Shown: one piece after another, positions 21,318 to 39,401 of the stretch | How positions within the stretch are numbered: the stretch's first letter is position 1 | How the letters are laid out: each line of letters opens with the position of its first letter | DNA from: Brucella pseudogrignonensis | GTDB lineage: Bacteria > Pseudomonadota > Alphaproteobacteria > Rhizobiales > Rhizobiaceae | DNA length: 64,000 nucleotides | Direction: 5' to 3' | Assembly (NCBI RefSeq): GCF_032190615.1 | Contig: NZ_JAVLAT010000004.1 | Location: forward strand, 102,389 to 166,388 | Program-made: the position numbers and the translations under genes | Notes under the pieces: generated by a model | The model's database searches: none | What the model was told of the DNA's origin: nothing | What the model saw: the letters and a program-made list of their open reading frames with translations, nothing else

Positions 21318-21394
21318 ACAAAATGGACCCAAAGCTAGCCGGAACGTAAATCGATATTTTTCCAAAATGGCTTTAGCGCTAGGACGGTTTGAAG

Positions 21395-22949: not shown

Positions 22950-23621
22950 TTATTGAGTTTCAAATATTCGCTCTGCACATTTAACATTCTGCGCAGAGAT
23001 CTTGTCTCTCAAATCCAATCTTAAACGATATTCAATCAGTGCTTCAATCGTAATTAAATGCAATTTATGATGTGATGCAAATTCGATCAATTGGGGAAGT
23101 CTGGACATAGTTCCGTCATCGTTTGCGATTTCACAAATTACTCCGCATGCAGAATGTCCAGCCAATCGTGCCAAGTCAACGGCCGCTTCCGTATGCCCGG
23201 GGCGACCTAAAACGCCCAGTGGATTTGCTCGAAGAGGAAAAATGTGCCCTGGTCGGGCAAAGTCGCTTGGCTTAGACAATGGATCGACCAGAGCACGGAT
23301 GGTTTTAGCACGATCTGATGCTGAAATACCGGTCGATATTCCCTTCATTAAGTCCACCGAAACAGTGAAAGCGGTTTGCATGGATTCTGAGTTTCTGCTT
23401 ACCATTAGCGGAATAGCGAGTTCATCAAGACGCTCACCTTGAAGTGATACGCATATGAGCCCTCGTGCATATTTCATCATAAAGGCGACGCTCTGAGCCG
23501 TCACAGCATCACCAGCAATGACGATATCCCCTTCATTTTCGCGGTTCTCATCGTCTACCACGATAACCATTTCACCATTCGCTATTGCCTTGATGGCAAC
23601 TTCAATTGAAGAAAATGACAT
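22950..23621 (-). CDS. ribB: 3,4-dihydroxy-2-butanone 4-phosphate synthase
   Basis: A 223-residue cytoplasmic enzyme converting ribulose 5-phosphate to 3,4-dihydroxy-2-butanone 4-phosphate plus formate, a branch of riboflavin synthesis. It has the acidic signature VVDDENRENEGDIVIA and the C-terminal catalytic block RPGHIFPLRANPLGVLGRPGHTEAAVDLARLAG. It is the single-function form without the GTP-cyclohydrolase II half. It starts at 23621 behind AGGAGAT and is the third gene of a leftward operon with a flavin reductase and an aldehyde dehydrogenase, so it is most likely a pathway-dedicated copy that raises FMN supply. Confidence 0.9.
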   Translation of the reverse strand: MSFSSIEVAIKAIANGEMVIVVDDENRENEGDIVIAGDAVTAQSVAFMMKYARGLICVSLQGERLDELAIPLMVSRNSESMQTAFTVSVDLMKGISTGISASDRAKTIRALVDPLSKPSDFARPGHIFPLRANPLGVLGRPGHTEAAVDLARLAGHSACGVICEIANDDGTMSRLPQLIEFASHHKLHLITIEALIEYRLRLDLRDKISAQNVKCAERIFETQ

Positions 23622-23630
23622 TGGTATCTC

Positions 23631-24134
23631 CTATGCTTTTTCAGCGGCTTGTTTTCCTGCCAGACTCACAAATCCTTGCCGATGCCATAAAAGGCATCGA
23701 TCTGCGTCGACGTTCGGCAGCAAAATATCATGAATTATTGCCACAACGATGGTGTGGCTGAATCCGTCATGGGTTGTAACAATGCGGCAATCAAATGCTA
23801 CGGTTGACCCTGCTAAGAGAGGGGCTCCAGTTTCCTGAAAGCTCCAAAGCGCTCCCTCAAATCGATCTACACCTTTAGCGCGCGCAAAATGATCCGCGTA
23901 GGGCAACATTGTGTCAGGTAGAACGGAAACACCAAGAAATCCCTGACGCAAAATTGTGTCATGAGCGGAAGCAGTCTTGTTTATGCATACTATTAGCGAG
24001 GGCGGCGATGCTGATAAGCTGCAAACAGCCGTCGCCATTAGGCCAGTAGGGATGCCGTTTTCAATGGTTGTGATCGTCGTCACGGGTCCAGCAAAACGCT
24101 GCATTGCTTCTCTAAAGTCTTCCGGTCGGATCAT
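23631..24134 (-). CDS. Flavin reductase (FMN-dependent, two-component monooxygenase partner)
   Basis: A 167-residue protein of the flavin reductase-like/FMN-binding split-barrel family (RutF, HpaC-like). Typical blocks are RFAGPVTTITTIENGIPTGLMATAVCSLSASPPSLIVCINKTAS, GFLGVSVL and the closing ILLPNVDADRCLLWHRQGF. These enzymes use NAD(P)H to make free FMNH2, which diffuses to a separate monooxygenase. It lies 9 bp before ribB and 16 bp after the aldehyde dehydrogenase gene. Its natural partner here is the luciferase-like monooxygenase encoded at 34992, whose operon carries the same promoter type. Confidence 0.87.
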   Translation of the reverse strand: MIRPEDFREAMQRFAGPVTTITTIENGIPTGLMATAVCSLSASPPSLIVCINKTASAHDTILRQGFLGVSVLPDTMLPYADHFARAKGVDRFEGALWSFQETGAPLLAGSTVAFDCRIVTTHDGFSHTIVVAIIHDILLPNVDADRCLLWHRQGFVSLAGKQAAEKA

Positions 24135-24150
24135 CTATATCCTCCTTCTC

Positions 24151-25587
24151 TCACATGCTATCGTGAGTAATGAAACGCGTGTTCACATAGGCTTCGAGTG
24201 CTTCACTGCCGCCTTCATAGCCATATCCAGAATCTCTAACGCCGCCATATGGAGTTTCCGGCAAACCCAAGCCTATATGGTTAATCGTCAACATGCCTGC
24301 CTGCACACCTTGGGCAAGGCGTCGTGCAGTAGAGCTACTTGTTGTCCATGCGTACGAACCAAGGCCAAACGGTAATCGTCCAGCTTCCTCAATCGCTTCA
24401 TCCAGATCGTCGTAGGCTTTTACGAGCGCTACAGGACCGAACGGTTCTTCATTCATTGCCCGCATTTCGGAAGTTACACCCATTAGAACAGTCGGTTCAA
24501 AGAAGTATCCGTTGTTGCCGATGCGATGGCCACCTGTGGCAATCTCTGCGCCATTTGCGGTGGCATCTTCCATTAGGGCCTCTACTGCTGCACGACGTCT
24601 CTCGTTAATCAGCGGCCCCATCTGTGTGCCATCAGCGAGCCCGTCTCCCACTTTAAGGGACTTCGTTTTTGCTACGAAACTCTCGACAAATTGATCATGA
24701 ATTTTCGAATGAATCAGAAAACGCGTCGGAGAGATACAGACCTGTCCAGCATTTCTGAACTTAGAAGCCACCAGTGCGGTTGTAGCAGCATTGATGTTGG
24801 CATCTTCTGCAACAATAACGGGTGCATGGCCTCCTAACTCCATCGTCACACGCTTCATATGAAGACCGGCAAGAGAGGCGAGTTGCTTGCCAACTCCAAT
24901 CGAACCTGTGAACGAAACTTTGCGTATAGCGGGATGTGGAATCAGGAATTCGCTTACTTCGGAAGGTGTGCCGAACACCAGATTGACGACGCCATTTGGA
25001 ATGCCTGCGTCATGCAAACACTGGAATAATAGAGCAGGAGAGGCGGGGGCTTCCTCCGGACCCTTGATAATAATCGAACAACCCGCAGCGATTGCTGGAC
25101 CGAGCTTTCGCACTATCTGGCTCATCGGAAAATTCCAAGGAGTGAAACCGACGGCCGGACCCACCGGATCTTTTATTGAGAACTGCTGAACATTTGTCGA
25201 GCGAGAGGGGATGACCCTGCCATAGGTACGACGGCCTTCTTCTGCGAACCAGTCTAGCAAGTCTGCACAAGAATTAACCTCCAATCTCGATTCAGCAAGC
25301 GGCTTACCCTCATCAGTTGTCAGGAGGCGTGCAGCATCTTCAATGCGCTCTCGCAACAAAGAAGCCGCTTTGCGAATGATTTTATATCTATCAAATGCCG
25401 AGGTACGGCTCCATGTTTCGAAGCCTGAAACTGCTGACTCGACAGCATATTCGAGATCTGATCTAGAGGCATGAGCAACCTTTCCGATCACCTCTCCGTT
25501 GACAGGATTAATAACGTCAATCGACAACCCCTTTTCGGCATCATGCCACTGGCCGCCGATGTAAAGCCGGGTATTCGGATAGCTCAT
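24151..25587 (-). CDS. NAD(P)-dependent aldehyde dehydrogenase, GabD-like
   Basis: A 478-residue cytoplasmic enzyme of the aldehyde dehydrogenase superfamily. The catalytic Cys is in FRNAGQVCISPTRF (around residue 283), the general-base Glu in VTMELGGHAPV (around 250), and the cofactor loop in VSFTGSIGVGKQ. Overall similarity is to succinate-semialdehyde dehydrogenases. It oxidises an aldehyde intermediate to the acid. It is the first gene of the operon with flavin reductase and ribB, directly behind a perfect sigma-54 promoter, so it is expected to be induced through the activator encoded divergently at 25812. Confidence 0.9.
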   Translation of the reverse strand: MSYPNTRLYIGGQWHDAEKGLSIDVINPVNGEVIGKVAHASRSDLEYAVESAVSGFETWSRTSAFDRYKIIRKAASLLRERIEDAARLLTTDEGKPLAESRLEVNSCADLLDWFAEEGRRTYGRVIPSRSTNVQQFSIKDPVGPAVGFTPWNFPMSQIVRKLGPAIAAGCSIIIKGPEEAPASPALLFQCLHDAGIPNGVVNLVFGTPSEVSEFLIPHPAIRKVSFTGSIGVGKQLASLAGLHMKRVTMELGGHAPVIVAEDANINAATTALVASKFRNAGQVCISPTRFLIHSKIHDQFVESFVAKTKSLKVGDGLADGTQMGPLINERRRAAVEALMEDATANGAEIATGGHRIGNNGYFFEPTVLMGVTSEMRAMNEEPFGPVALVKAYDDLDEAIEEAGRLPFGLGSYAWTTSSSTARRLAQGVQAGMLTINHIGLGLPETPYGGVRDSGYGYEGGSEALEAYVNTRFITHDSM

Positions 25588-25630: not shown

Positions 25631-25646
25631 AGCAATCATCGTGCCA
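25631..25646 (-). promoter_or_regulatory. Sigma-54 (-24/-12) promoter of the aldehyde dehydrogenase operon
   Basis: Read leftward the sequence is TGGCACGATGATTGCT, an exact match to the consensus TGGCAC-N5-TTGCW. It ends 43 bp before the start codon at 25587, so transcription should begin at about 25620. Confidence 0.85.
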
Positions 25647-25717
25647 ATTCGCTAAAATACTGATCTGAAAAACCTTTTAGCTATGCAATCTCATTAAACG
25701 CCAAAATTCTCAATTTT

Positions 25718-25733
25718 GTCTCAAAAATGAGAC
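25718..25733. promoter_or_regulatory. Upstream activator palindrome (GTCTCA-N4-TGAGAC)
   Basis: GTCTCAAAAATGAGAC is a perfect inverted repeat. A second, half-degenerate copy (GTCTCA-GTTT-TGATCC) lies at 25763-25778. They are about 75-130 bp upstream of the sigma-54 promoter, the normal distance for an enhancer site. The same 6-4-6 palindrome occurs at 36235-36250. Confidence 0.7.
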
Positions 25734-25811
25734 TTCATTCGTCTGAGCGATTGTCTTGACTTGTCTCAGTTTTGATCCGTTAATGTCTAAAAAATATAAG
25801 GGAACACGGTA

Positions 25812-27770
25812 ATGCTTGATGTAGACGATCACTACCGTCTTATAGAAAGAGCTGTTTTAGAGGGAGCAGATAAGTCTGCCTCCTCGTGGAGGACGGAATC
25901 TTGGGCGCGATGTTTAAACGACTTCAAACTTGATCCATCGCGACCTCAATTGGTAGATCTGACTTCCCGCGAACTTAGGGTAGAATTTGAATCATTCGAC
26001 GAGGACGTTGCCTTAGCGACAAAAGAACTCGAAGCCACATTATCGATGATTGAAGGTGGTGGGTATAGTGCACATTTGGCCAATCGCAACGGCGTTATTA
26101 TTTCTGAACGGCGTAGCAAAGATTCTGCCTTCTATTGCAGCACGGACAGGGTTGGCGCGGTGTGGACCGAGGAAGTCGGCGGTACAAATGGCATCGGAAT
26201 GGCTTTGTCCCGCTTATCATCTACAGCAGTTTACCTCTCTGACCATTTTTACGCAGAGCTTACAGGGCAAGCTTGCGCTTCGGCACCTTTCTTTGGGCCC
26301 AATGGTGATGTTCTCGGAGTTGTTAACTTGTCCACCTGTAACCCCGGACTGCCGCAATTAGCACATCGGGTAGTTTTCGGTGTAGCTCAGGCAACCGCTG
26401 ACCGGTTGGAAACAGCTTATTTCCGAACATGTTTTAAGAGGAACTATACACTGATGGTACGTACAGAAGAACGTACACCTGCAATTTTTGCTATCGATAG
26501 TGATTTCCGCATCGTCGGAGCTACGAGAACAGCCCGAAGCCTTTTTAAGCTTCAAGATTCCACAATTGGTAGTCGAACAATATGGGCAATTTTCGAGAAA
26601 ATTCGTGGAAACCCACCAGTGGATACTCTTTGTGATAGCCTGAAAGAATTAAGGCAACTGGGAATTTCAAATGTTGTAGAGGTCGTATTGAAGCGCCCTC
26701 TGTCCATTACTCCAGTTGGAAGCATAAAGCCATCCGCAGTTCGGAGTTCAACTGCTAACATTGGGAAGCGTATAACGACTTTATCAGAGTGCTGCGGCGA
26801 CGATAGTCAGATGAAACGTAACGTCGCTGTTTTGAAAAAGGTGTTTGGCAGTGGTCTGCATATTCTATTGCTCGGTGAGACTGGTGTCGGGAAAGATACG
26901 CTAACACGGGCTCTTCACTATGAAAGTGAAAGAGCTGTCGGACCGTTCGTTGCCTTTAATTGCTCTGCAGTGCCCGAAACATTAATCGACAGTGAATTGT
27001 TTGGTTATAGTAGCGGCGCATTTACTGGCGCTAGCAAGGATGGCAACTCTGGCCGTATCGTTGAGGCTGACAAGGGGACTTTGTTTCTTGATGAAATTGG
27101 TGACATGCCTTTGCAGCTCCAAACACGGCTTCTTCGTTTTCTTGAAACGCAGGAGGTTACCCCTCTTGGTTCGGGAAAAATGCGTACGGTCGATGTACAG
27201 ATTGTTGCTGCGACCCACCAAGATTTACAGGCCAAGGTTAATGCAGGTACATTTAGACAAGATTTATATTATCGATTAGCAGGGGCCGTCGTCGTATTGC
27301 CCTCTCTGAGAGAAAGAGAAGACCTTGAAACGATAATTGCCAATGTAATGTTGCACATTGCAGATGGTGAGGATCTCAGCATCTCTGCCGAGGCAATGCG
27401 GTTATTGACGCAGCATGAATGGACAGGAAATATCAGAGAGCTAAGAAATGTACTTACACGAGCTGTCAAGTTGGCTGAAGGTAAAATTATAAAGCCAGAT
27501 GATCTGATGCTCTCGCCATCGGTAAAAATAGCTAGTCCTCCTCTCGAAGAGTTGAAGGTTTCCGAGCGAATAGCCGCAAGAAGGAATGTTGTTGCTATTG
27601 CTTCGTCGTCAAAAAAAGCAGCTATCAATTTGGCAGAGCGTGAAGCTATTCTTTCCGCAATTGAGACACACAACGGAGATGCAATTGCTTGCATAGACGC
27701 ACTTGGCATTAGCCGAGCGACTTTTTATCGCAAACTTAAACAATATGGAATAAGTTTAGGCACCCGCTAA
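25812..27770 (+). CDS. Sigma-54-dependent transcriptional activator, GAF-AAA-Fis type (AcoR-like)
   Basis: A 652-residue activator. Residues ~60-200 resemble a GAF sensor (SAHLANRNGVIISERRSK; EVGGTNGIGMALS; FFGPNGDVLGVVNLS), as in AcoR-type regulators. Residues ~330-560 are the AAA+ domain: Walker A GETGVGKDT (~355), the sigma-54-contacting loop GAFTGA (~402), and Walker B TLFLDEIGD (~424). The C-terminal Fis-type HTH is DALGISRATFYRKLKQYGI. The GAFTGA loop shows it works with sigma-54. It is divergent from the aldehyde dehydrogenase operon and should bind the TGAGAC palindromes. The inducer is unknown but probably the substrate of the flanking operons. Confidence 0.92.
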   Translation: MLDVDDHYRLIERAVLEGADKSASSWRTESWARCLNDFKLDPSRPQLVDLTSRELRVEFESFDEDVALATKELEATLSMIEGGGYSAHLANRNGVIISERRSKDSAFYCSTDRVGAVWTEEVGGTNGIGMALSRLSSTAVYLSDHFYAELTGQACASAPFFGPNGDVLGVVNLSTCNPGLPQLAHRVVFGVAQATADRLETAYFRTCFKRNYTLMVRTEERTPAIFAIDSDFRIVGATRTARSLFKLQDSTIGSRTIWAIFEKIRGNPPVDTLCDSLKELRQLGISNVVEVVLKRPLSITPVGSIKPSAVRSSTANIGKRITTLSECCGDDSQMKRNVAVLKKVFGSGLHILLLGETGVGKDTLTRALHYESERAVGPFVAFNCSAVPETLIDSELFGYSSGAFTGASKDGNSGRIVEADKGTLFLDEIGDMPLQLQTRLLRFLETQEVTPLGSGKMRTVDVQIVAATHQDLQAKVNAGTFRQDLYYRLAGAVVVLPSLREREDLETIIANVMLHIADGEDLSISAEAMRLLTQHEWTGNIRELRNVLTRAVKLAEGKIIKPDDLMLSPSVKIASPPLEELKVSERIAARRNVVAIASSSKKAAINLAEREAILSAIETHNGDAIACIDALGISRATFYRKLKQYGISLGTR

Positions 27771-27780
27771 CGGGTGCCTA
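27757..27780. terminator. Bidirectional hairpin between convergent genes
   Basis: TAGGCACCCG pairs perfectly with CGGGTGCCTA around the loop CTAA. The loop is itself the overlapping stop codons of the activator gene and the convergent flavoprotein gene. A T run is lacking on both sides, so termination may be inefficient. Confidence 0.65.
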
Positions 27781-29197
27781 CGCGCATACCAATGATACGA
27801 GGTAGGTTAGCTATGGCTCGCGCTAAAGCTGGTTGAGGTAGTCCCGCATCCTCTGCATCTTCGCAGCGTACAATTGAATCTCGGACCATAAGCCCGCCGA
27901 TGTACCTAAAGGGTTCAGGTGGGAAAGTAAGACGTTGCCGATGGCAAAATACTGAATTAGACCATTTGTCGTTTTCATTGAGTATTAGCGATGAGATGCA
28001 TTCGCCAGCAAGCACTGTCGCGTTGACGCCATGACCCGAATAGCCAGACCCATAATGAATTCTAGTTCCCGGTAAAGTACCAAAGAACGGTAACCGATCA
28101 GCCGTTACTTCGATGGGGAAGCCCCAACGGGCGGCAATGCCTCCGCTCATGTTAGGGAAGAACCTTTTGAGACCTACTTCAGCCCTCTGAACACTCGAAG
28201 GGTCATTTCTGAGCTTAGGTGAGAGGTGTGCATTTCCTTTTTCCAATGGTCCCGAGCCTGAACCCATCAGAATACGTCCGTCGCGTGTTCTTCGGAAGTA
28301 ATGGGTGAACATTCGGAGGTCCGCTAGTCCTCGCGCGATGGTGTAATTTCTCTTTTCAAGTTCTTCAGGATTTGCAGCTGACATCACAGGAAAGCTTGAA
28401 AATAGTGACGTCGAACGAGACACAGCATTAATGTCCATCGTCCCGGTATACGTCGCCAAGACTACATCTCGAGCAATTACCTCACCTGATCCTGTCTGAA
28501 CACGGCAGGTCTGTCCCTTGTTAATCGCAATGACAGGCGTATCCTCGAAAACTAACACACCTGCATCGGCAATTGCAGCTCTTAAATGATTTGCGAGACG
28601 CGCTGGATGAACTGTAGCTCCTTCTTCGAATAGGAGACTCTCCTGGAACATTTCCGATTGGCAGAGTGCGTTCGTTTCGGCTTGCGAAAGGCGTGTAAGT
28701 GTTGTTGATACGCCCAAACTATTTGCAACAGCAATTAACTCATCAATCTTTTTACTTTGAGCCGCTGAGGTCGAGACGCGGATATAGCCTTTTTCTTCCC
28801 ACCAAACATCTCGATCTTTATTTGAAGCAAATTGACTTAAGCGGCGTTGCGCTAGCGTCCCAAGATGCGCGGCTTCAAGGGCCTTGTTCGCACCAAACAT
28901 TGGCAATAGCGTGGGTAAGGCCCCCCAGTATCCATGTACATTGCCGCCATTTCTGGAGCTTGCTCCGTCGCCGCATCTAAATGCGTCTAAAACTGCGACG
29001 CGGAGATGAGGTTGACGTTCTTTTAGTATGAGAGCAGTCCACATGCCTGTGAAGCCTCCGCCGATGATTGCAACATCGACGCTCACTGATCCGTGAAGAG
29101 TGCGATAATTAGAGACTTCAGAGCTTGAGCGAATGTCCTGTTGCCACCATGAGAACTCGGAGGCAATATTGGAAGGAACGGCGGAAAGCAATTTCAT
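27767..29197 (-). CDS. FAD-dependent amine/amino-acid oxidase-like protein (DAO family, PuuB-like)
   Basis: A 476-residue flavoprotein. The start at 29197 (MKLLSAVPSN) has GGAGTACC upstream; the 20-residue extension to 29257 lacks this. The FAD Rossmann motif DVAIIGGGFTGMWTALIL is at residue ~40, followed by GASSRNGGNVHGYWG, the block next to the flavin in gamma-glutamylputrescine oxidase relatives. The C-terminus has the second flavin contact HYGSGYSGHGVNATVLAGE. It probably oxidises a primary or secondary amine to an imine, hence to an aldehyde, handing product to the aldehyde dehydrogenase. It is the last gene of the long sigma-54 operon. Confidence 0.85.
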   Translation of the reverse strand: MKLLSAVPSNIASEFSWWQQDIRSSSEVSNYRTLHGSVSVDVAIIGGGFTGMWTALILKERQPHLRVAVLDAFRCGDGASSRNGGNVHGYWGALPTLLPMFGANKALEAAHLGTLAQRRLSQFASNKDRDVWWEEKGYIRVSTSAAQSKKIDELIAVANSLGVSTTLTRLSQAETNALCQSEMFQESLLFEEGATVHPARLANHLRAAIADAGVLVFEDTPVIAINKGQTCRVQTGSGEVIARDVVLATYTGTMDINAVSRSTSLFSSFPVMSAANPEELEKRNYTIARGLADLRMFTHYFRRTRDGRILMGSGSGPLEKGNAHLSPKLRNDPSSVQRAEVGLKRFFPNMSGGIAARWGFPIEVTADRLPFFGTLPGTRIHYGSGYSGHGVNATVLAGECISSLILNENDKWSNSVFCHRQRLTFPPEPFRYIGGLMVRDSIVRCEDAEDAGLPQPALARAIANLPRIIGMRVGTR

Positions 29198-29222
29198 TAG
29201 GGTACTCCGACCGTTAGGCCGC

Positions 29223-30809
29223 CTATATCTTAATTCCAAGGATGAATTCGGCAGCACGTTCGCCCAACATGATAGCTGGAGCGTTCAGGTTACCAGAGGG
29301 AACACGAGGGAAGGTCGATGTATCCGCAACGCGCAGACCATCAATACCTCTAACTCGGAGCAGTGGGTCGACGACTGCCATCTCGTCGGTGCCCATTTTG
29401 CATGCGCCTGACGGGTGCAGTGCACCTTGTCCTGTCGCGCGTACGAAGTTCATGCGTTCAGCTTTAGTTTTGAGTATTTCACCCGGACGGTAGGGAGCAC
29501 CGACATACTTTGAAAGACTGCGTTGACGAAGTATTTCCTGACCAATACGGACACCTTCCGCCAAACACTCAACATCGTACTCTTCAGCGCAATATCGAGG
29601 ATCAACAATCGGAAATACGTTCGGATCGCTACTCTTTAGTTTGACGTACCCCCTTGATTTGGGTCGTGATTGATAAACGTTCGTGGTGCAACCATTGCCG
29701 CTCGGTGTTGAGTCCGACCCTTCTTCTACACCTGCGCCAGGGAGGAAGTGATACTGCAACGTTGGTAGCTTATCGTCCTCAGCGCCATACCAACAAAGAC
29801 CGCCCTCGCAGACGTTCGAAGTCACGGGTCCATTTCGGAACAATGCGTATTGCAAACCTGCCCAAGCCTGCCAGCGTAGCTTCTTATATTTGTCATAGCT
29901 GTGGGGTCCGGTTAACTCATAGATCAGGAACATATCGAAGTGATCCTGGAGATTTTGACCAACACCTGGAAGATCGTGCTTCACATCTACGCCAATTTCA
30001 CGAAGATGATCGGCGGGGCCAATTCCTGATAGCATGAGCAGGTGGGGTGATCCAATTGCTCCAGAACAGATAATAACTTCCTGAGCCGCCGAGACTTTCA
30101 AAATCTGTCCATTGTGCTCGTATTCCACCCCCACCGCTCGATTATTTTCGATAAGTATTCGCAGTGCTTTTGTTTTTGTCTGAATGGAAAGGTTCTTGCG
30201 CTTCTTGGCTGGGCGCAAATAAGCAGCCGAAGCACTACAACGTAGACCATCCTTCATCGTTACCTGATAAAATCCCACACCTGCCTGCTGGCCTGAATTG
30301 AAGTCAGGATTGAAGTTTATCCCCATCTCTTGTGCTGCTCTAACCCAGGCTTTTGTAAGATAATGAGTATGTCGCTGATCAGAAACACTGAGAGGTCCTT
30401 CTGTTCCATGTGTTTCACCAGCAAAGCGTTCGTTACTTTCCGCTTTCTTGAAATAGGGAAGAACGTCCTTGTAGGCCCATCCGTGGCACCCATCAGCCTC
30501 CCACTGATCGTAGTCTTGAGGGATGCCGCGCATGTAGACCATTGCATTCACAGAGCTACCACCACCTAACACGCGACCCTGAACAAATTCAGGTGTTATC
30601 CCGCCTTGATGTGCCTGAGGTTCAAGCCGATAGCGGGTTAACATGTCGCTTTTCGACGTTTTGTAATAAGTTACGGGCAAATGGATATATGGGCTCCAAT
30701 CCCGGCTGCCCTGTTCCAGCAATAAAACCTTACTCGATCCATCTTCACTCAACCTCGATGCGATGGTGCATCCAGCGGACCCGCCGCCTACGATAATGTA
30801 ATCGTACAT
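29223..30809 (-). CDS. GMC-family FAD alcohol dehydrogenase (choline dehydrogenase-like)
   Basis: A 528-residue glucose-methanol-choline oxidoreductase. I start it at 30809 (MYDYIIVGGGSAG), directly before the FAD motif; the 40-residue extension upstream is not family-like. Other signatures are GRVLGGGSSVNAMVYMRG, AGAIGSPHLLMLSGIGP (GMC signature 2) and, at the C-terminus, the catalytic His in GALHPSGACKMG and Asn in PSGNLNAPAIM. It would oxidise a primary alcohol to an aldehyde, passing electrons to the respiratory chain or oxygen. It follows the ABC ATPase gene by 20 bp and precedes the DAO-type gene by 25 bp. Confidence 0.9.
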   Translation of the reverse strand: MYDYIIVGGGSAGCTIASRLSEDGSSKVLLLEQGSRDWSPYIHLPVTYYKTSKSDMLTRYRLEPQAHQGGITPEFVQGRVLGGGSSVNAMVYMRGIPQDYDQWEADGCHGWAYKDVLPYFKKAESNERFAGETHGTEGPLSVSDQRHTHYLTKAWVRAAQEMGINFNPDFNSGQQAGVGFYQVTMKDGLRCSASAAYLRPAKKRKNLSIQTKTKALRILIENNRAVGVEYEHNGQILKVSAAQEVIICSGAIGSPHLLMLSGIGPADHLREIGVDVKHDLPGVGQNLQDHFDMFLIYELTGPHSYDKYKKLRWQAWAGLQYALFRNGPVTSNVCEGGLCWYGAEDDKLPTLQYHFLPGAGVEEGSDSTPSGNGCTTNVYQSRPKSRGYVKLKSSDPNVFPIVDPRYCAEEYDVECLAEGVRIGQEILRQRSLSKYVGAPYRPGEILKTKAERMNFVRATGQGALHPSGACKMGTDEMAVVDPLLRVRGIDGLRVADTSTFPRVPSGNLNAPAIMLGERAAEFILGIKI

Positions 30810-30829
30810 GCAATATTCCCCAAAAAATG

Positions 30830-31909
30830 TTAGCTTGCCAAGACGACTACAGAAGCAGGATCCCAACTTAACGAAACGGGGCTGCCGACACCGAAGCGTA
30901 TCCCTGCTGCGGCGCGGGCTTCCTGACATTTCAGAGTTGTGCCACTCTGATGACGAACTTTGTAAACGACCCGACTTCCGACAAAGACGACATCTTCCAC
31001 TTCACCTGAAAGACGATTTACGGCCTCGTTATTGTCATCAGCTTTAGCGATAGTGATTGCTTCGGGACGAATTGAAACGTGCACTGGTGCACCAGATGGT
31101 AGGTCTGGAGTCCCAACGCTGGCTGCTCCCACCGATAGGTCGAGCAACGCACCATTGCTGTCGGAAGCTCTCACTTTGCCATCCAGCAGGTTGGTTTCGC
31201 CAAAGAACTTTGCGCAGAAAAGCGTTTTGGGTGATCCATACATTTCATCGGGTGTACCAATTTGCTCGATAGTGCCCTTGTTCATAAGCACGACGCGATC
31301 AGAGAGTATCATCGCTTCATCTTGATCGTGGGTCACGTAAACAAAGGTCGTGCCTGTTTCGGTATGAATACGCTTAAGTTCTTCCAGCATAAGGTGGCGA
31401 ATTTTCAGATCTAAAGCTGCAAGGGGTTCATCGAGTAGAAGAACCGAAGGTTTGTTAACCAAGGCTCGAGCAAGTGCAACGCGCTGAGCTTGCCCACCGC
31501 TGATCTCACCAATCCAGCGGTTGGAGAATTCCTGTAGTTGTACCAAATTCAGCATGGCAGAAACTTGATCGTTAACCTCCGCCTTTGGTAAGCCTTTAAG
31601 GCGAAGACCAAATGCAACATTGTCAAAAACATCCAAATGAGGAAACAGCGCATAACGCTGGAAGACCATATTAACTGGTCGTTTCTCTGGAGGAGTTTTA
31701 GTAACTGTCTGACCCGAAATTAACACTTCACCCCGGGTCGGCATTTCGAAGCCCGCGATAATGCGCATTAAAGTGGATTTGCCGCAACCACTGGGGCCAA
31801 GTAGTGTGAGGATTTCGCCCTGCTTTACGTGCAGATTTATGTTATCGAGTGCAACAAATGCGCCAAAGGATTTAGTGATGTTGCTAAGTCCTACTATATT
31901 CTGTGACAT
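30830..31909 (-). CDS. ABC importer ATPase, spermidine/putrescine class (PotA-like)
   Basis: A 359-residue ATPase. The start at 31909 (MSQNIVGLSN) is fixed by TAAGGAGAT just upstream. Walker A is GPSGCGKST, signature ISGGQAQR, Walker B VLLLDEPLAALD, and switch His is in VTHDQDEA. Residues ~250-359 are a TOBE domain (VHVSIRPEAITIAK), as in PotA, where it tunes transport. With the two permeases and the binding protein encoded upstream it forms a complete polyamine/opine-class importer. Confidence 0.9.
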   Translation of the reverse strand: MSQNIVGLSNITKSFGAFVALDNINLHVKQGEILTLLGPSGCGKSTLMRIIAGFEMPTRGEVLISGQTVTKTPPEKRPVNMVFQRYALFPHLDVFDNVAFGLRLKGLPKAEVNDQVSAMLNLVQLQEFSNRWIGEISGGQAQRVALARALVNKPSVLLLDEPLAALDLKIRHLMLEELKRIHTETGTTFVYVTHDQDEAMILSDRVVLMNKGTIEQIGTPDEMYGSPKTLFCAKFFGETNLLDGKVRASDSNGALLDLSVGAASVGTPDLPSGAPVHVSIRPEAITIAKADDNNEAVNRLSGEVEDVVFVGSRVVYKVRHQSGTTLKCQEARAAAGIRFGVGSPVSLSWDPASVVVLAS

Positions 31910-31920
31910 TTTTGATCTCC

Positions 31921-32718
31921 TTATGCTTCTGAATCTCGCGATGCCATCGCTCGTTTTCTTTGCAGCCAAAGAATTAATCCACCTGCGGCAAGAACAGCTA
32001 TTGATAGCGCCAATGCTATGACGCTGGCCGCGTTGATGGACGGATCTACGGTTCTTCGCATCATTGACCAGATGTAGAGCGGAAGAGTTGTATCGTTTCC
32101 GCTGACAAAGACGGTGACGATGAATTCGTCGAACGAAAGCGCAAATGCCAGTATCGCTGCACCTGCTATTGTTGGTGCGAGAATTGGTATTGTCACAAAG
32201 CGAAAAGTTTGAAGCTGCGTTGCACCGAGATCGCGCGCGGCCTCCTCTAAAGAGTGATCAAAGTAGTTGATGCGAGACCGCATAGTTTCAACGAAAAACG
32301 GCAAAGTGCACAATACATGAGCTATTGTCACTGTGAGTAGTGTCCGAGGAAGACCCACTTGAGCGAAAAGCGTCACGAGAGCGATGCCAATAAACAAGCC
32401 AGGCAAGCCAATTGGCGCGAAATTCATCCACTCGAATGTCTTTTTGTATCTATCTTTCAGACGTATCAGCGCCAACGCTGCCAATGTGCCTAAAATAGTT
32501 GTTGTTATCGCGGTGAAGAAGCCAACCTTAAGGCTGTTCCAAAGAGAAGCAACAAAATCAGGGCGCGATAAAAGCGCTTCATACCATCTTAGGCTCAGCC
32601 CCTCGATTGGGAAAGTCAAAGCCGGACTGCTATGAAAGCTGAACAGAATGATGATCAGAATTGGCGTGAACAAGAAAAATAAATATGCTGTCAGATAAGC
32701 TCTTAACATGGCGATCAC
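31921..32718 (-). CDS. ABC importer permease, PotC-like
   Basis: A 265-residue inner-membrane protein with six predicted helices. The cytoplasmic coupling loop is SLEEAARDLGATQLQTFRFVTIPILAPTIAG, the EAA motif that docks on the ATPase. N-terminal TPILIIILFSFHSSPALTFPIEGLSLRWYEALL is characteristic of PotC/PotI-type subunits. Its start overlaps the stop of the PotB-like gene by 4 bp (ATGA), indicating coupled translation. It forms the pore together with that subunit. Confidence 0.9.
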   Translation of the reverse strand: MIAMLRAYLTAYLFFLFTPILIIILFSFHSSPALTFPIEGLSLRWYEALLSRPDFVASLWNSLKVGFFTAITTTILGTLAALALIRLKDRYKKTFEWMNFAPIGLPGLFIGIALVTLFAQVGLPRTLLTVTIAHVLCTLPFFVETMRSRINYFDHSLEEAARDLGATQLQTFRFVTIPILAPTIAGAAILAFALSFDEFIVTVFVSGNDTTLPLYIWSMMRRTVDPSINAASVIALALSIAVLAAGGLILWLQRKRAMASRDSEA

Positions 32719-33632
32719 CGATGGTAGCGCCGACCTGGCGCAAGCTTGAGAATGCGAAGTGTAAATGTGAACAGAATGTACACAATGATGAACGCGCCCA
32801 TCAAAACGAATGCCATCGCTGAACCTAATGGCCAGTTACCCGCACTGCGAAACTGGTTAGCTATTAGGAGACCACTCGTCACCCCGTCGCGCCCACCAAG
32901 CAGCTGAGGCGTAATATAATCCCCTGCAGCAAGGATGAATGTGAACATGAAAGAGCCGACGATGCCCTTATAGCACATCGGCAAAATGACCTTTGTAAAC
33001 ACACCTGTTTTTGACGCACCCAAGTCTCGGGCGGCATCTAAATAATCCTGCTTTACGTCACGAAGCGATGCGACGAGGATCAACAGAGAAAAAGGTAACA
33101 TGATGTGGATCAGTGTAAGCACCGTTGCGAACGGACTAAAAAGTATTACTTCAAGGGGTTGATTAATTATGCCCGTGCTCATGAGCATTGAGTTGATCAC
33201 ACCGTTTGTACCAAGTATTGTCCGCCAAGCGTATACACGTACTAAGTAGCTAGAGAACCACGAGAGTAATACCAAATACATTATAAGGTTGCTACGGGTC
33301 CTGTAGACTAAATAGTAAGCGACTGGGAAGCTCAGGGCTAAAGAGAGTGATGCCGTATAGAAGCCATTCTTCATCCCAACCCAAGTCGCTTGCCAGAAAC
33401 CTGGGGCTGACAGGATTCGTACATAGTTCTCCACATTCCAGATGGGCTGAATTACAAACGATCGAGCCGTAAAAAAGCTTGTCACGAACAAGAGAATGAC
33501 AGGTATGATGAAGAAGATAACTAGAAATGCAAAAGGAAGACTAGCTAGTCCAAACCCGTTCGGCAGCTTGAAAGAAGTTCTTCCCGAAGCTTGTGTGTTA
33601 TTCTTGTCAACGTATTCGGCGGCAGTCGCCAT
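32715..33632 (-). CDS. ABC importer permease, PotB-like
   Basis: A 305-residue inner-membrane protein, slightly longer at the N-terminus than its partner. EAA coupling loop: KQDYLDAARDLGASKTGVFTKVILPMCYKGIVG. GDYITPQLLGG is the strongly conserved PotB/PotH motif near the fifth helix. It pairs with the PotC-like permease encoded immediately after. It is separated from the binding-protein gene by a hairpin that probably lowers its expression relative to that gene. Confidence 0.9.
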   Translation of the reverse strand: MATAAEYVDKNNTQASGRTSFKLPNGFGLASLPFAFLVIFFIIPVILLFVTSFFTARSFVIQPIWNVENYVRILSAPGFWQATWVGMKNGFYTASLSLALSFPVAYYLVYRTRSNLIMYLVLLSWFSSYLVRVYAWRTILGTNGVINSMLMSTGIINQPLEVILFSPFATVLTLIHIMLPFSLLILVASLRDVKQDYLDAARDLGASKTGVFTKVILPMCYKGIVGSFMFTFILAAGDYITPQLLGGRDGVTSGLLIANQFRSAGNWPLGSAMAFVLMGAFIIVYILFTFTLRILKLAPGRRYHR

Positions 33633-33683
33633 GAGCGTACATCCCGTGATACTTAGATTATTTCAATAAGTGCGAAACAAAAG

Positions 33684-33713
33684 CGGCCAGCGAGCCTTTT
33701 AGCTCGCTGGCCG
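33684..33713 (-). terminator. Intercistronic hairpin between binding-protein and permease genes
   Basis: A perfect 12 bp stem (CGGCCAGCGAGC / GCTCGCTGGCCG) with a 6-base loop, seven bases past the binding-protein stop. Read leftward it is followed by CTTTTGTTT. It probably acts as a partial terminator or mRNA-stabilising element that keeps the binding protein in excess over the permeases. Confidence 0.75.
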
Positions 33714-33719
33714 TTACCA

Positions 33720-34895
33720 TTAGAAACCGGCACGGAAATCGGCCCAAACCTGCAGCCAATCATCGTATGTTGCAAATTCATCTGACGTACGTGGCGGTTG
33801 ACCGTAAATCTTTAGCGTTTTGAACTGCTCATCAAAATGCTCATAATCAAAAAGCGCTTTGGTTTCGGAATCCATTAAGGCCGGAGCCTTTTTGGAAACC
33901 GTCGATGCAACAGCGGTTTTACAAACAGACGCTTGGATTTCCGGATCAAGAGCTTCATTAATAAAGGCAGTGGCTGTGTCAATGTTAACAGCCGTTTTGG
34001 GAATGAACCAAGCATCTGCCCAAACAGCTCCACCTTCTTTTGGATAAACTGCGACAGTTTTCACATTTTGTTTAGAAGTTTCTAGTGGAACAGCACTCCA
34101 GACGCAGAAACACGCTGCAATTTCTCCAGAAGCAAACAGTGAAATTACATCACCGTTTGATGACGCAAAGACTTTCGTTTGGTCACGATAAGGCTTCAGT
34201 TTTTCGAAACAATCTTTCAGTTCATCCTTGGTAAGATTAGGGAACTTCTCGCCGTAACCTGTAACTTTTGCAATCTGTGGCCACACGGTGAGTGGATTGT
34301 CGAGAAACGCGAGTTTTCCAGTTAATTCTGGACGCAGTAAATCTTTGTAGCTTTTGACTTCAAAGCCCGTCAGTTCAGGATTAACAACAATCGTGTCTAA
34401 TCCCCAAACCCAGGGAATTGCGTAGTTCTTACCATCCCAAAACCACATGTCACCTTCGTAGAAGGGCGGATAAATGTCATCTTTATTGTAATTCGGTAGT
34501 TTTGAAGTGTCTATTTCTGTGAGAACGCCGAGTTCATCATAAATAGCGTTGTATCCATTAGAGTACTCCGCCAAATCTAGTCTTACCGCGTTATTACCCA
34601 CTATTTTGGCGGTGACGTCGTCCTGATTACTCATAATGGCCGCACGCATAGTGACGTTATTAGCTTTACGCCAGTCTGCGGTTTCTGGCTCCAGCGTATA
34701 GCCTTCCCAAGCCATCACTTCAAGATTACCGCCAATGGCAGCCCGTGCGTTTGGAACCCATGCTCCCAACGTTGCTCCTGCCGTAATAGCAGCTGTCCCT
34801 AACAGAAAACTTCTGCGCCCAAGTACAATTTGATCAAGGAGATCGGTAGTACGTGCTGATTCATTGTTATTGTTACTCGTCGGCTCATTTTTCAT
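33720..34895 (-). CDS. Periplasmic binding protein, PotD/spermidine-putrescine class, Tat-exported
   Basis: A 391-residue protein. I start it at 34895 (MKNEPTSNNN) behind GGGAG; the 29-residue extension upstream is not needed. The signal has a twin-arginine motif (GRRSFLLGT) and a hydrophobic stretch ending in ARA near residue 51, so export of the folded protein by Tat is likely. The mature fold is a type II periplasmic binding protein (LEVMAWEGYTLEP; AIPWVWGLDTIVVNPELTG; FIPKTAVNIDTATAFINEAL). It captures the ligand for the PotABC-like subunits. The ligand is probably a cationic amine or related compound, but this is only class inference. Confidence 0.88.
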   Translation of the reverse strand: MKNEPTSNNNNESARTTDLLDQIVLGRRSFLLGTAAITAGATLGAWVPNARAAIGGNLEVMAWEGYTLEPETADWRKANNVTMRAAIMSNQDDVTAKIVGNNAVRLDLAEYSNGYNAIYDELGVLTEIDTSKLPNYNKDDIYPPFYEGDMWFWDGKNYAIPWVWGLDTIVVNPELTGFEVKSYKDLLRPELTGKLAFLDNPLTVWPQIAKVTGYGEKFPNLTKDELKDCFEKLKPYRDQTKVFASSNGDVISLFASGEIAACFCVWSAVPLETSKQNVKTVAVYPKEGGAVWADAWFIPKTAVNIDTATAFINEALDPEIQASVCKTAVASTVSKKAPALMDSETKALFDYEHFDEQFKTLKIYGQPPRTSDEFATYDDWLQVWADFRAGF

Positions 34896-34991
34896 CGAAA
34901 GGCTCCCAATTTGGAATGTAATGTGTGCTTTTCCCTCGAGTATTTTATTGTGTTTGGTCACGCGGGTTTCCCCGCATGACATAGTATTTAT

Positions 34992-36098
34992 CTACTCCGC
35001 TGCAGCGAGCGTGCTTACATGCTGACGAAGTTTGGGCATTACATCGGTCGAAAGCAGTTCCATCGAACGTTTATGTACTGCAGGGCGATCCCAATCTTTT
35101 TGGGTCATCATAAGTGAACCAAAAGGTCCGCCAACTTCATCGACGAAAGCAATAAGCTTATCGAGAACAGTTTTTGGGGATCCTGAGAGTACCATCCAAT
35201 CGAGGCAATTCTGAACCGTGATATCACTATCCAAAGTATTCATTGATGGCTTCAGAACCCCGAGCATCTTGAAGGCAGCCATATCTTCAACGATGTATTC
35301 ATAGTACCATCGATATGAAGAATTTTCCTCTGCTAAGTAATCCGCTGCTTGATCGTCACTGTCAGTAACGAGTAAGGAACGTGCAATTCGCCACTTATTG
35401 CGATCTGGTCGACGGCCTGCCTTTTCGCAACCGATTAGATACTGTTCCCAATGTGTCTTCACATTTGCGACTGGTGTGAAGTTTGCTGAAACGATACTCC
35501 ACCCATTCTCGCCTGCTTGGCGCGCAGAACTTGAGTTCGGGCTCATCACTGAGATTGCCAATTCTGGGAATGGCTTCTGGTATGGCTTGAGCATCGGACC
35601 AAAGCCAAGGCTTGGGATCAGGTTTTTCTCGATCACTACGTCCCAGTATTTGCCTTTAATATTATAGGGAGGGTCCTGTGACCAAATCTCGTGCATGATA
35701 CGGATAGACTCCGTCGTCATCTCAGCTCGATTTTTTTCACTGGTTCCAAATAATTCCATATCAGTGACGAGGCCGCCTGGACCTACACCCATGATAAATC
35801 GGCCCTCTGAAAGATGATCGAACTGTGCGATCTCACCAGCTAGGCGAGCAGGATGGTGTTGTGGCAGGTTAAGCACACCCGTTGCGAACTTGATCTGTTT
35901 AGTCGCATGAATGAGTGATGCAAAAAACTGCAATGGATCCGAGATTGGTTCACACGAACAACTGATGTGTTCACCAACCCAAACCTCAGCAAAATTCAAG
36001 CGATCTGCGAGGATAACCGCTTCGCGGTCCTGTTTAAGCAATTCCGTGAAATTGCGCCGCTGATCGTGAAGCGGCATCATAAATAGACCGAGGTCCAT
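34992..36098 (-). CDS. Luciferase-like FMNH2-dependent monooxygenase (LLM class)
   Basis: A 368-residue TIM-barrel flavin monooxygenase. The start at 36098 (MDLGLFMMPLHDQ) has AGAGGAG upstream. Family blocks: FAEVWVGEHIS, ATGVLNLPQHHPARLAGEIAQFDHLSEGRFIMGVGPG (substrate and flavin pocket) and a C-terminal LSGSPKTVLDKL. It uses free FMNH2 and O2 to hydroxylate or cleave an organic substrate. The FMNH2 should come from the flavin reductase encoded at 23631, in the other operon of the same predicted regulon. It is the first gene behind the sigma-54 promoter, so its reaction may be the first pathway step. Confidence 0.88.
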   Translation of the reverse strand: MDLGLFMMPLHDQRRNFTELLKQDREAVILADRLNFAEVWVGEHISCSCEPISDPLQFFASLIHATKQIKFATGVLNLPQHHPARLAGEIAQFDHLSEGRFIMGVGPGGLVTDMELFGTSEKNRAEMTTESIRIMHEIWSQDPPYNIKGKYWDVVIEKNLIPSLGFGPMLKPYQKPFPELAISVMSPNSSSARQAGENGWSIVSANFTPVANVKTHWEQYLIGCEKAGRRPDRNKWRIARSLLVTDSDDQAADYLAEENSSYRWYYEYIVEDMAAFKMLGVLKPSMNTLDSDITVQNCLDWMVLSGSPKTVLDKLIAFVDEVGGPFGSLMMTQKDWDRPAVHKRSMELLSTDVMPKLRQHVSTLAAAE

Positions 36099-36152
36099 TT
36101 GGAGTCTCCTCTTTTTACCAGATCGGCCTTTTCCGATCCTCATTAATATCGA

Positions 36153-36168
36153 AGCAAGGTCCGTGCCA
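36153..36168 (-). promoter_or_regulatory. Sigma-54 (-24/-12) promoter of the monooxygenase/importer operon
   Basis: Read leftward: TGGCACGGACCTTGCT, an exact match to TGGCAC-N5-TTGCW, 54 bp before the start codon at 36098. It would drive seven co-directional genes down to 27767. Confidence 0.85.
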
Positions 36169-36234
36169 GTTGAAAATTGATAGAAAAACCAATATGTTAT
36201 AGGTCGAAGTGCACTGTCTCAATAAGCTTTGCGA

Positions 36235-36250
36235 GTCTCATGCTTGAGAC
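36235..36250. promoter_or_regulatory. Upstream activator palindrome (GTCTCA-N4-TGAGAC), second copy
   Basis: GTCTCATGCTTGAGAC is a perfect 6-4-6 palindrome, identical in its arms to the one at 25718-25733 and at a similar distance (about 75 bp) upstream of its sigma-54 promoter. Extra half sites occur at 36216-36221 (GTCTCA) and 36275-36280 (TGAGAC). Confidence 0.7.
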
Positions 36251-36280
36251 AAACGATTGAGATTTGGGTGGCTTTGAGAC

Positions 36281-36308
36281 AAAAAAGAAGCCGGATAAAT
36301 CCGGCTTC
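36281..36308 (-). terminator. Rho-independent terminator of the DadA-like gene
   Basis: GAAGCCGGA pairs with TCCGGCTTC around a TAAA loop. Read leftward the stem is followed by six T. It lies 13 bp after the stop codon at 36322. Confidence 0.9.
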
Positions 36309-36321
36309 CGTAGAGGGTGGA

Positions 36322-37572
36322 TTAAGCGGCATCCCGCCGCTGAAGTTTCGGAGATTGCGCTATCAGCTCCGAAACAAGTTCTGCCGTCGCTGCCGATAAT
36401 GTCCAGCCGAGATGCCCGTGGCCCGTGTTGTAAAAAATGCCGGGTCTAGATCCAGCTTTTATGCGTGGTAGCATGTTGGGCATCATCGGACGTAAGCCCG
36501 CCCAGGGGGTTACTCTCGAAGTTGAGATGTCTGGGAACAACAAACGCACCCAATCAACAAGAGGCTTAATTCGATCATGCCGAATGTCTTTGTTTTCCCC
36601 ATTGAATTCCGCTGTCCCAGCAACGCGGAAACGATCATGGCCGAGCCTACTGGTAACAATCTTTGCGCGATCATCCAGCAGACTTACCCACGGTGCACCA
36701 TGCTGACTAGTCTCGTCGTCGAGGTGAACTGTTATCGAATAACCTTTGACAGGATAGATGTTTACGCGATCACCCAGCATGGATGCGAAGGTTCTACTCG
36801 CCACGCCAGCGCAAACCACAAGTCCATCTGCTTTAATTGAGTTATTTGCAGTTCCAATCTTCCCGCTCTCTTTCCAGAGAAGCTCAATGCTATCTCTGGC
36901 ATCAATTCGCTCTACGTCCGCGTCAAAGATAAATTTCACACCTCTACGAATACAAGCTTCTGCGAGCCCTCGTGTAAATTTATGAATATCTCCAGTTGAA
37001 TCAGAAGGCGTAAAAAAGCCACCATAAAAATCTCCAACCAATGATGGTTCTATTTGCTTAATTTCAGATTCATTAACGGAGTGGCGGTCTAACCCACCTT
37101 GAATCAGAAGACTGTTAACCTTCTTGGCATGCTCAAAACTTTGCTTATCGTAATAAACATGTAGAATGCCACGCTTTTCTAAGTCAAAATTGATGTTTTC
37201 TTTATCCGCAATTTCGAACATGTATTTACGTGCTGCAATAGCTAGACGCGTCGTTTCAACGGTATTAGATTGATAGCCGCCAATAAACTTCATAAACTCA
37301 CCCATCCATGAGTATTTATGCCAATTAGGCGATGGGTTCATTAGTAGAGGCGCGTCTTTCTTGAGCATCCATTTGATGCCTTTGAACACCGTCGACCAGT
37401 GATTCCAAACTTCGGCATTGCTCGCAGAAAGCTGGCCACCGTTTGCAAAGGAAGTTTCCATCGCTGGATAACGGTGCCTGTCAAACACAGTGACATCGTA
37501 TCCCCGTTTCGACAATGCATAAGCCGTGGTGACGCCAGTAATCCCAGCGCCTAAAACTGCAATGTGGTGCAA
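36322..37572 (-). CDS. D-amino-acid dehydrogenase/glycine-oxidase-like flavoprotein (DadA-like)
   Basis: A 416-residue FAD enzyme. No ATG precedes the FAD motif (HHIAVLGAGITGVTTAYALSKRG), so I place the start at the TTG at 37572, five bases after GGAGAG; the frame upstream of it runs into riboswitch sequence. The DadA hallmark is TSFANGGQLSASNAEVW, and the C-terminus has GHGHLGWTLSAATAELV, as in DadA. DadA-type enzymes sit on the inner face of the membrane and oxidise D-amino acids to oxo acids, passing electrons to quinone. The glycine riboswitch in its leader suggests glycine or an N-substituted glycine as the physiological substrate, giving glyoxylate. It has its own terminator, so it is monocistronic. 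Confidence 0.87.
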   Translation of the reverse strand: MHHIAVLGAGITGVTTAYALSKRGYDVTVFDRHRYPAMETSFANGGQLSASNAEVWNHWSTVFKGIKWMLKKDAPLLMNPSPNWHKYSWMGEFMKFIGGYQSNTVETTRLAIAARKYMFEIADKENINFDLEKRGILHVYYDKQSFEHAKKVNSLLIQGGLDRHSVNESEIKQIEPSLVGDFYGGFFTPSDSTGDIHKFTRGLAEACIRRGVKFIFDADVERIDARDSIELLWKESGKIGTANNSIKADGLVVCAGVASRTFASMLGDRVNIYPVKGYSITVHLDDETSQHGAPWVSLLDDRAKIVTSRLGHDRFRVAGTAEFNGENKDIRHDRIKPLVDWVRLLFPDISTSRVTPWAGLRPMMPNMLPRIKAGSRPGIFYNTGHGHLGWTLSAATAELVSELIAQSPKLQRRDAA

Positions 37573-37620
37573 GATTCTCTCCGACAGTTGGTCTGGGACG
37601 TTTGCCAGTCCCGTAGCCCC

Positions 37621-37785
37621 CAATCTGTCTTTCTTACCTGAGAGCTTTCCCCAATATGGGTCCCCTTCGGTGGGCACTTCCGTGCCTCTCTCCAGATTGT
37701 TCAACTGCGCAGTCTTTTTTGCCTGAGAGTTTCCTGGGGGGTTGCTCCTTCGGCGTGGCGTGATGCCATCTCTCCTGAACAGCTT
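37621..37785 (-). ncRNA. Tandem glycine riboswitch
   Basis: Read leftward, two consecutive glycine aptamers are visible. The first has CAGGAGAGAT, CCGAAGGAGCAA and AACTCTCAGGCAAAAAAGAC; the second has CTGGAGAGAGGC, CACCGAAGGGG and GCTCTCAGGTAAGAAAGACAG. These are the conserved core blocks of the class, joined by a short linker. The expression platform (37573-37620) contains a GGGAC/GTCCC hairpin and then the GGAGAG ribosome binding site of the DadA-like gene. Tandem glycine switches usually turn expression on when glycine is abundant. Confidence 0.93.
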
Positions 37786-37856
37786 TTGAACGCTATTAGG
37801 TTAGACACATATAGCTATATTCGACAATCCCCTTTTTGAAAAAAGATTTTTCCCGT

Positions 37857-37872
37857 TGGCACGTGTTTTGCT
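37857..37872 (+). promoter_or_regulatory. Sigma-54 (-24/-12) promoter upstream of the 2-hydroxyacid dehydrogenase gene
   Basis: TGGCACGTGTTTTGCT matches TGGCAC-N5-TTGCW exactly and lies 32 bp before the ATG at 37905. No GTCTCA/TGAGAC palindrome is seen upstream, where the divergent riboswitch leader begins, so the enhancer site is unclear. Confidence 0.8.
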
Positions 37873-39337: not shown

Positions 39338-39371
39338 TAGAATGCCAGCATCCGATAATGCTGGCATTCTA
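39338..39371 (+). terminator. Hairpin terminator after the GlcG-family gene
   Basis: A perfect 13 bp stem (TAGAATGCCAGCA / TGCTGGCATTCTA) with an 8-base loop, followed by TGTTTTGG. Being symmetrical and T-poor it may be a moderate terminator. Confidence 0.75.
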
Positions 39372-39401
39372 TGTTTTGGAAGTACGGCAGGGAAACGCGA
39401 A

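Follow-up and report, generated by a model that had tools for sequence, protein, structure and literature searches.

The 64,000-nucleotide stretch of Brucella pseudogrignonensis DNA analysed here (contig NZ_JAVLAT010000004.1, positions 102,389 to 166,388; hereafter the window) carries two leftward-reading operons, the first headed by an aldehyde dehydrogenase (ALDH) gene and the second by a monooxygenase gene, with the gene for an AcoR-like sigma-54 activator between them. Each operon is preceded by an exact -24/-12 promoter and, 66-71 bp further upstream, by an exact copy of the palindrome GTCTCA-N4-TGAGAC. From the conservation, rarity and phylogenetic distribution of these sites we conclude that the activator very probably binds both of them and co-induces the two operons as one pathway. 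The arrangement thus appears to be a real regulon with a strong and testable predicted-binding model, although its mechanism would be of a known kind.

Two promoters with matching upstream arrays

The original prediction, made by reading the letters alone, placed two perfect -24/-12 promoters and two perfect GTCTCA-N4-TGAGAC palindromes before the operons, and all four elements are indeed exact. The promoters, both matching TGGCACN5TTGC, lie on the minus strand at 25632-25646 (TGGCACGATGATTGC, operon 1) and 36154-36168 (TGGCACGGACCTTGC, operon 2), and the palindromes, which are the predicted activator sites, lie at 25718-25733 (GTCTCAAAAATGAGAC) and 36235-36250 (GTCTCATGCTTGAGAC). The spacing of 75-80 bp given for them holds when it is measured from the palindrome centre; from the palindrome edge to TGGCAC the distance is 71 bp for operon 1 and 66 bp for operon 2. 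The description of a single palindrome per promoter was correct for the core and an understatement for the region as a whole, for the palindromes form the centres of larger arrays of half-sites, three exact ones before operon 1 and four before operon 2, with five-base remnants besides. At operon 1, a TCTCA (TGAGA on the promoter strand) at 25706-25712 flanks the palindrome towards the promoter, and an additional exact GTCTCA is found on the plus strand at 25763-25768. The operon-2 array includes GTCTCA at 36216-36221 (TGAGAC on the promoter strand) and a distal TGAGAC at 36275-36280 (GTCTCA on the promoter strand). A terminator-like stem with a T run at 36286-36309 (minus strand), 3' of a D-amino acid dehydrogenase gene, stops exactly at this distal half-site, as if insulating the enhancer.

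These elements are rare in the genome that holds the window (4.45 Mb in 7 contigs), which has only three exact palindromes, two of them in the window, 14 palindromes when up to one mismatch is allowed, and 25 exact sigma-54 elements as compared with two for the reversed control. An exact-match scan places three of the 25 in the window, the third (37857-37871, plus strand) preceding a D-2-hydroxyacid dehydrogenase/HbpS-like operon; the chance of three falling within one 12-kb span is about 5e-5. Neither the third exact palindrome of the genome (C2:1133580), which lies within a 1031-amino-acid open reading frame (ORF) with no sigma-54 element, nor a one-mismatch palindrome at 61741, within ORF 61093-61791 and with no sigma-54 match listed nearby, was retained as a regulon site. 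The notion that unrelated palindromes happen to stand beside two sigma-54-like sequences draws some comfort from the loosest matches, since in the window palindromes with up to two mismatches are hardly above chance level (6 found against an expectation of 2.4, with as many in 4 of 100 shuffles). The exact palindromes, however, are rare, and the probability that two of three would fall 40-150 bp upstream of any of the 25 promoters is about 1e-6. Furthermore, the palindrome arms are conserved, and the 222-base intergenic region before operon 1 matched no plasmid record by sensitive blastn. Chance is hardly credible as an explanation, and the conservation described next already refutes it.

Conservation in close relatives

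Conservation was followed at six loci per operon, namely the window, Rhizobium vallis, Ensifer adhaerens, Agrobacterium pusense, A. cucumeris and the genome G627, with Mesorhizobium left out of the alignment. Before operon 1, all 12 columns of the palindrome arms are invariant, as compared with 10 of the 71 columns that separate palindrome from promoter and 12 of 43 further upstream; before operon 2 the corresponding counts are 10 of 12, 11 of 66 and 7 of 48. The promoters themselves are invariant at 10 of 10 and 9 of 10 bases, respectively. Conservation extends to the arrays: at operon 1 a TGAGA that is invariant in the six loci sits 11 bp beyond the TGAGAC of the palindrome, and at operon 2 both the upstream GTCTCA and the downstream TGAGA around the core are likewise invariant. 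The extra half-site at 25763-25768 is not conserved in the aligned relatives. Absence of the palindrome beside orthologous activators had been named as grounds for rejecting the model, and what we find there is an exact palindrome before the ALDH operon in all six loci (the window and five relatives whose activators are 68-70% identical) and one within a single mismatch before the monooxygenase operon in five. At the sixth locus, that of A. cucumeris, the latter palindrome has two mismatches and its promoter one.

The distance from palindrome to sigma-54 element before operon 1 is 70-71 bp in all six loci, a constancy that also bears on whether this palindrome might serve mainly in autoregulation of the divergent activator gene, with sigma-54 activation of operon 1 being secondary. 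The palindrome does end only 78 bp before the activator start, and a nearby GTCAAG block, which reads CTTGAC on the activator strand and might be a -35 element, is invariant in the six loci. Yet the same site precedes operon 2, where no activator gene is divergently transcribed, and a promoter scan found no sigma-70 match before the activator gene, leaving the CTTGAC block as the sole remaining lead. We therefore consider a mainly autoregulatory role very improbable and continue to favor a site for activation of both operons. No significant helical phasing was detected in the site-to-promoter gaps (the best R, 0.45, was reached by 21% of random sets).

The longest conserved block of operon 2 is an inverted repeat in the monooxygenase mRNA leader (36119-36139, minus strand; AGGATCGG...AGGCCGATCT). 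It is almost invariant in the six loci, occurs once in the genome and folds at -12 kcal/mol (z -1.8), and is absent as such from Mesorhizobium. It might form a hairpin that stabilises the mRNA, or serve as a second protein site. The monooxygenase start codon probably lies at 36098 rather than 36143 because the nearest homologues among the matches listed are 368 residues long, as compared with 383 for the longer version, and cover 96%. Ensifer DNA matches the 36143-start protein from its first residue, which we put down to the conserved leader.

The activator and its clade

The activator gene (25812-27770, plus strand) had been read as encoding a GAF-AAA-Fis protein. The AAA+ sigma-54 interaction domain is present with an intact GAFTGA loop, and a Fis-type helix-turn-helix lies at the C-terminus (PF02954 HTH_8, E 8e-7) and in all 21 aligned members (the query and 20 of the 120 proteins among the matches listed). 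The GAF assignment fared less well: Pfam gave no GAF match in the window activator at E<=0.1, and the N-terminal matches among the 21 proteins are limited to GAF in three and GAF_2 in four. A fold search of the activator model was informative for the AAA+ domain only, the N-terminal part being barely covered. The protein appears to be AcoR-like rather than AcoR proper because the cluster showed no acetoin genes; acetoin dehydrogenase components were absent from the 20 Pfam-scanned neighbourhood proteins, though such targets may lie elsewhere in the genome.

A tree built from 46 activators contains a clade of 32 (100/99) that includes all 28 rows scored as monooxygenase-linked at a cut-off of 38% identity. 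Among the clade members scored as unlinked, the sequence of L170 begins within a monooxygenase gene (89.8% over the first 294 bases), the activators of L086 and L181 lie at contig ends, and L180 has a monooxygenase match of only 31%. The best palindrome has at most one mismatch in 22 of the 32 clade members (11 exact, 11 with one), as opposed to 0 of 14 outsiders. The recognition helix S[RK][AS]TxYR is found in 32 of 32 members and in 3 of 14 outsiders, whose other forms include DRTTVHRR, so that helix type and site seem to agree broadly, not perfectly. The literal GAFTGA is lost in one clade member, L164, which has GSFTGA.

Specificity of the site

The wider survey covered the best 80 of at least 573 loci encoding an activator relative, with L088 (the same record as L166) and L086 omitted from the counts of palindromes with up to one mismatch. 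Such gap-4 palindromes number nine at the close loci (in 5 of 5), four in Mesorhizobium (2 of 2) and 18 beside monooxygenase-linked activators of about 40% identity (13 of 16). All told, 20 of 23 monooxygenase-linked activator loci have one, whereas among the controls it occurs at 1 of 29 loci with other AcoR-like activators, which mostly span only some 4.8 kb, and at 0 of 64 distant activator loci. Twenty further loci of 12.5-20 kb added only L185, which is itself monooxygenase-linked, and alternative gap lengths gave 0-3 palindromes per group. A de novo count of gapped palindromes ranked GTCTCA with a gap of 4 first, in 10 of 15 orthologous upstream regions, the next-best palindrome reaching three and base-shuffled controls at most one. 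With respect to promoters, 22 of 34 palindromes (from 25 loci) have a sigma-54 element with no more than one mismatch (16 of them exact) at a distance of 35-150 bp, which holds for 2.4% of 10,000 random positions.

A blind scan for the composite element, that is, an exact palindrome and an exact promoter separated by 45-75 bp, was run on 394 family and 397 order genomes, the two sets overlapping. It matched two of the former (the genome of the window with two copies and G627 with one) and one of the latter (the genome of the window), with no match for the reversed control. The G627 composite (C21:29994-30095) adjoins the gene for a 70% identical activator (C21:27956-29917), and before the second operon of that genome an exact promoter and a palindrome with one mismatch lie 67 bp apart. 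An activator protein search of the 394 family genomes at E<=1e-120 found only three, the two just named and G337 at 40% identity, which has no composite and whose best palindrome has two mismatches. Of 297 order genomes searched, 45 had a match at E<=1e-80, none above 42% identity except that of the window, and a first contig scan using a single protein gave no match. A palindrome common throughout genomes had been put forward as a second way for the model to fail; with three exact copies in the genome and composites in 2 of 394 and 1 of 397 genomes, the site is instead rare. Co-conservation and the one blind hit in G627 thus support the pairing of palindrome and activator, and with it the local regulon and binding-site model of the original prediction.

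Because the identity of the palindrome-binding protein is itself a prediction, the sites might be bound by another regulator, for example a repressor encoded nearby or another of the genome's sigma-54 activators, with the AcoR-like protein acting elsewhere or at other sites. Candidates are at hand, as two LysR-type genes lie nearby (21389-22315 and 39342-40304) and the genome has five other strong sigma-54 activator matches. However, the site tracks the activator clade in the Rhizobiales, one Acidisoma and one of two Pseudomonas loci despite changed neighbour-gene order, and at none of eight further activator-type loci in this genome is such a site present, even with one mismatch. Fis-type activators, moreover, fit 2-fold symmetric sites upstream of -24/-12 elements. 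Binding by another regulator is therefore unlikely in our estimation, and the AcoR-like protein remains the favored candidate.

Several observations nonetheless weigh against a single activator acting through this site. The relatives compared here are not independent samples. The exact promoter at 37857-37871 has no palindrome within 250 bp. Twelve of the 34 palindromes have no sigma-54 match at 35-150 bp, and in 10 of the 32 clade members the best site has two mismatches, a chance-level result shared by 8 of 14 outsiders. Finally, the outsiders L186-L188 and L191 have monooxygenase matches of 36-37%, just below the 38% cut, and three of them have the clade-type helix, so that the monooxygenase link may extend beyond the clade. 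The promoter-less palindromes are spread over L160, L165, L080, L082, L083 and L185 (one each) and L081, L084 and L090 (two each), nine of the 12 being in six Xanthobacteraceae or Bosea loci; those of L165, L080 and L083 stand immediately before a GMC oxidoreductase gene.

A few further arrangements were seen in the relatives. At L084 (5703-5740), and also at L081 and L090, two palindromes lie 22 bp apart with no canonical sigma-54 element nearby, and a similar pair precedes the GMC gene of L165. Exact sigma-54 elements without a palindrome also occur within the clusters of relatives (L160 24517, L158 8890, L170 13156 and L179 1923). In the Mesorhizobium loci L161 and L162, the D-2-hydroxyacid dehydrogenase and monooxygenase genes share one two-mismatch palindrome, and a second ABC importer, likely to be an extra regulon member, is preceded by a sigma-54 element with one mismatch and, 102 bp upstream of that element, by an exact palindrome (L161 9676, L162 9684).

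Genes of the two operons

Reading leftward, operon 1 encodes a NAD-type semialdehyde dehydrogenase (24151-25587, minus strand, as are all genes of both operons; Pfam Aldedh), whose best solved relative is the alpha-ketoglutaric semialdehyde dehydrogenase 5x5t (E 3e-178), a flavin reductase (23631-24134; PF01613, E 6e-31), presumed to be the reductase half of a two-component monooxygenase, and a RibB-like 3,4-dihydroxy-2-butanone 4-phosphate synthase for FMN supply (22950-23621; PF00926, E 2e-84; TIGR00506 above cut-off). Operon 2 begins with a luciferase-like (LLM) monooxygenase (34992-36098; PF00296) whose best solved relative is 3,6-diketocamphane 1,6-monooxygenase (E 3e-39). It continues with a PotD/PotF-like solute-binding protein (33720-34982; Pfam), PotB-like and PotC-like importer permeases identified by domain search (32715-33632 and 31921-32718), a PotA-like importer ATPase (30830-31969; TIGR01187 over cut-off), a GMC (choline-dehydrogenase-like) oxidoreductase (29223-30929; PF00732/PF05199) and a DAO-type FAD oxidoreductase (27767-29257; PF01266, the nearest NCBIfam, TIGR03329, being below cut-off).

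The two operons are complementary: the flavin reductase and FMN-supply genes are in operon 1 and the flavin-dependent oxygenase is in operon 2, a division that makes co-regulation sensible. With a PF00296 oxygenase and a PF01613 reductase both encoded in the cluster, we infer that the two proteins work together. A reductase match accompanies the oxygenase match in 20 of 24 related loci (19 of 23 minus the duplicate L088). A network table in a study of Mesorhizobium huakuii bacteroids includes an LLM monooxygenase, MCHK_4854 (value 7.7), and a flavin reductase, MCHK_4853 (value 5.3) (PMC3973600).

Candidate routes for the substrate were those of trigonelline, pyridine and vitamin B6, none of which stood out; pyridoxine 4-oxidase is one of the weaker matches to the GMC protein. 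The D-amino acid dehydrogenase gene adjoining the operon-2 array (36322-37704; PRK12409 over cut-off) has a same-named gene in the clusters of four relatives and lies downstream of a glycine riboswitch (37700-37787, minus strand; Rfam RF00504, 64.7 bits). Both Mesorhizobium clusters additionally carry malate synthase G. The riboswitch and dehydrogenase context hints at a link between the pathway and glycine or glyoxylate.

Discussion

In the model that we propose, the activator would recognise GTCTCA-N4-TGAGAC at the centre of an enhancer array of several half-sites, 66-71 bp upstream of both -24/-12 elements, and its GAFTGA loop and AAA+ ATPase would open sigma-54 polymerase at the two promoters once an effector is present. 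The effector is probably the substrate brought in by the importer or a compound derived from it. One activator would in this way co-induce a single catabolic pathway divided between two operons and built around a split two-component flavin monooxygenase. Operon 2 would supply the importer, the LLM monooxygenase and the GMC and DAO-type oxidoreductases, and operon 1 the flavin reductase, RibB and the semialdehyde dehydrogenase.

One could go further and suppose that the palindrome is the strict code of an undescribed AcoR-like subfamily, co-inherited in Rhizobiales, Acidisoma and Pseudomonas, often on plasmids, with a single uncharacterised pathway built on a two-component flavin monooxygenase, and that one array serves several promoters of the cluster, the site-less one at 37857 included, from a distance of at least 1.6 kb. 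We regard this extension as rather doubtful. The more limited model of one activator and two operons nevertheless turns what was a hunch about two sites into a tested predicted-binding model for an uncharacterised activator clade. The site may be usable as a tag for listing the genes of the pathway in many genomes and picking candidate substrates, and an inducible promoter could be built from it once the effector is identified. The mechanism of activator, upstream activating sequence (UAS) and sigma-54 promoter is itself textbook, which makes the surprise a moderate one.

Among the open-licence matches listed, we found no paper that pairs GTCTCA-N4-TGAGAC with a monooxygenase cluster, motif letters being poorly searchable. 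The closest parallel to the site is that of AcoR, which targets acetoin genes, whereas the targets here would be those of a two-component monooxygenase pathway; the likeness is drawn from the sites, not from the Bacillus protein. The AcoR site of Peng 2020 is reportedly from B. thuringiensis. The published sites, as quoted in PMC12648084, are CAGTTTGAGAC (Ali 2001) and GACAAAACGAGACAGATGTCTCATTTTGTC (Peng 2020). AcoR of Bacillus acetoin catabolism is likewise a sigma-54 activator with the same GAGAC/GTCTC half-site, and in the second quoted site the half-sites point outward (CGAGAC-N4-GTCTCA), whereas they point inward here, with a four-base gap in both (PMC12648084). A further source describes the operator of AcoR as a palindrome spanning some 30 bp and comprising two pairs of sites, an organisation reminiscent of the half-site arrays described above (PMC10018347), and another reports an AcoR motif for Clostridiales (PMC6615313).

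Other sigma-54 activators and other monooxygenases offer partial parallels. The butane monooxygenase controlled by BmoR is of the multicomponent diiron type, and TgnA/TgnB (trigonelline) and PyrA/PyrE (pyridine) are LLM-class two-component flavin monooxygenases. BmoR is a butanol-responsive sigma-54 activator that controls the butane monooxygenase genes through an inverted-repeat UAS lying 193 bp upstream, as compared with 66-71 bp for the sites here (PMC8899819). Two-component flavin monooxygenases of the LLM class, 3,6-diketocamphane monooxygenase among them, share with the present cluster the combination of an LLM oxygenase, a separate flavin reductase and a semialdehyde dehydrogenase; the best solved relative is distant (E 3e-39), and in the window the reductase and the oxygenase are encoded in separate operons.

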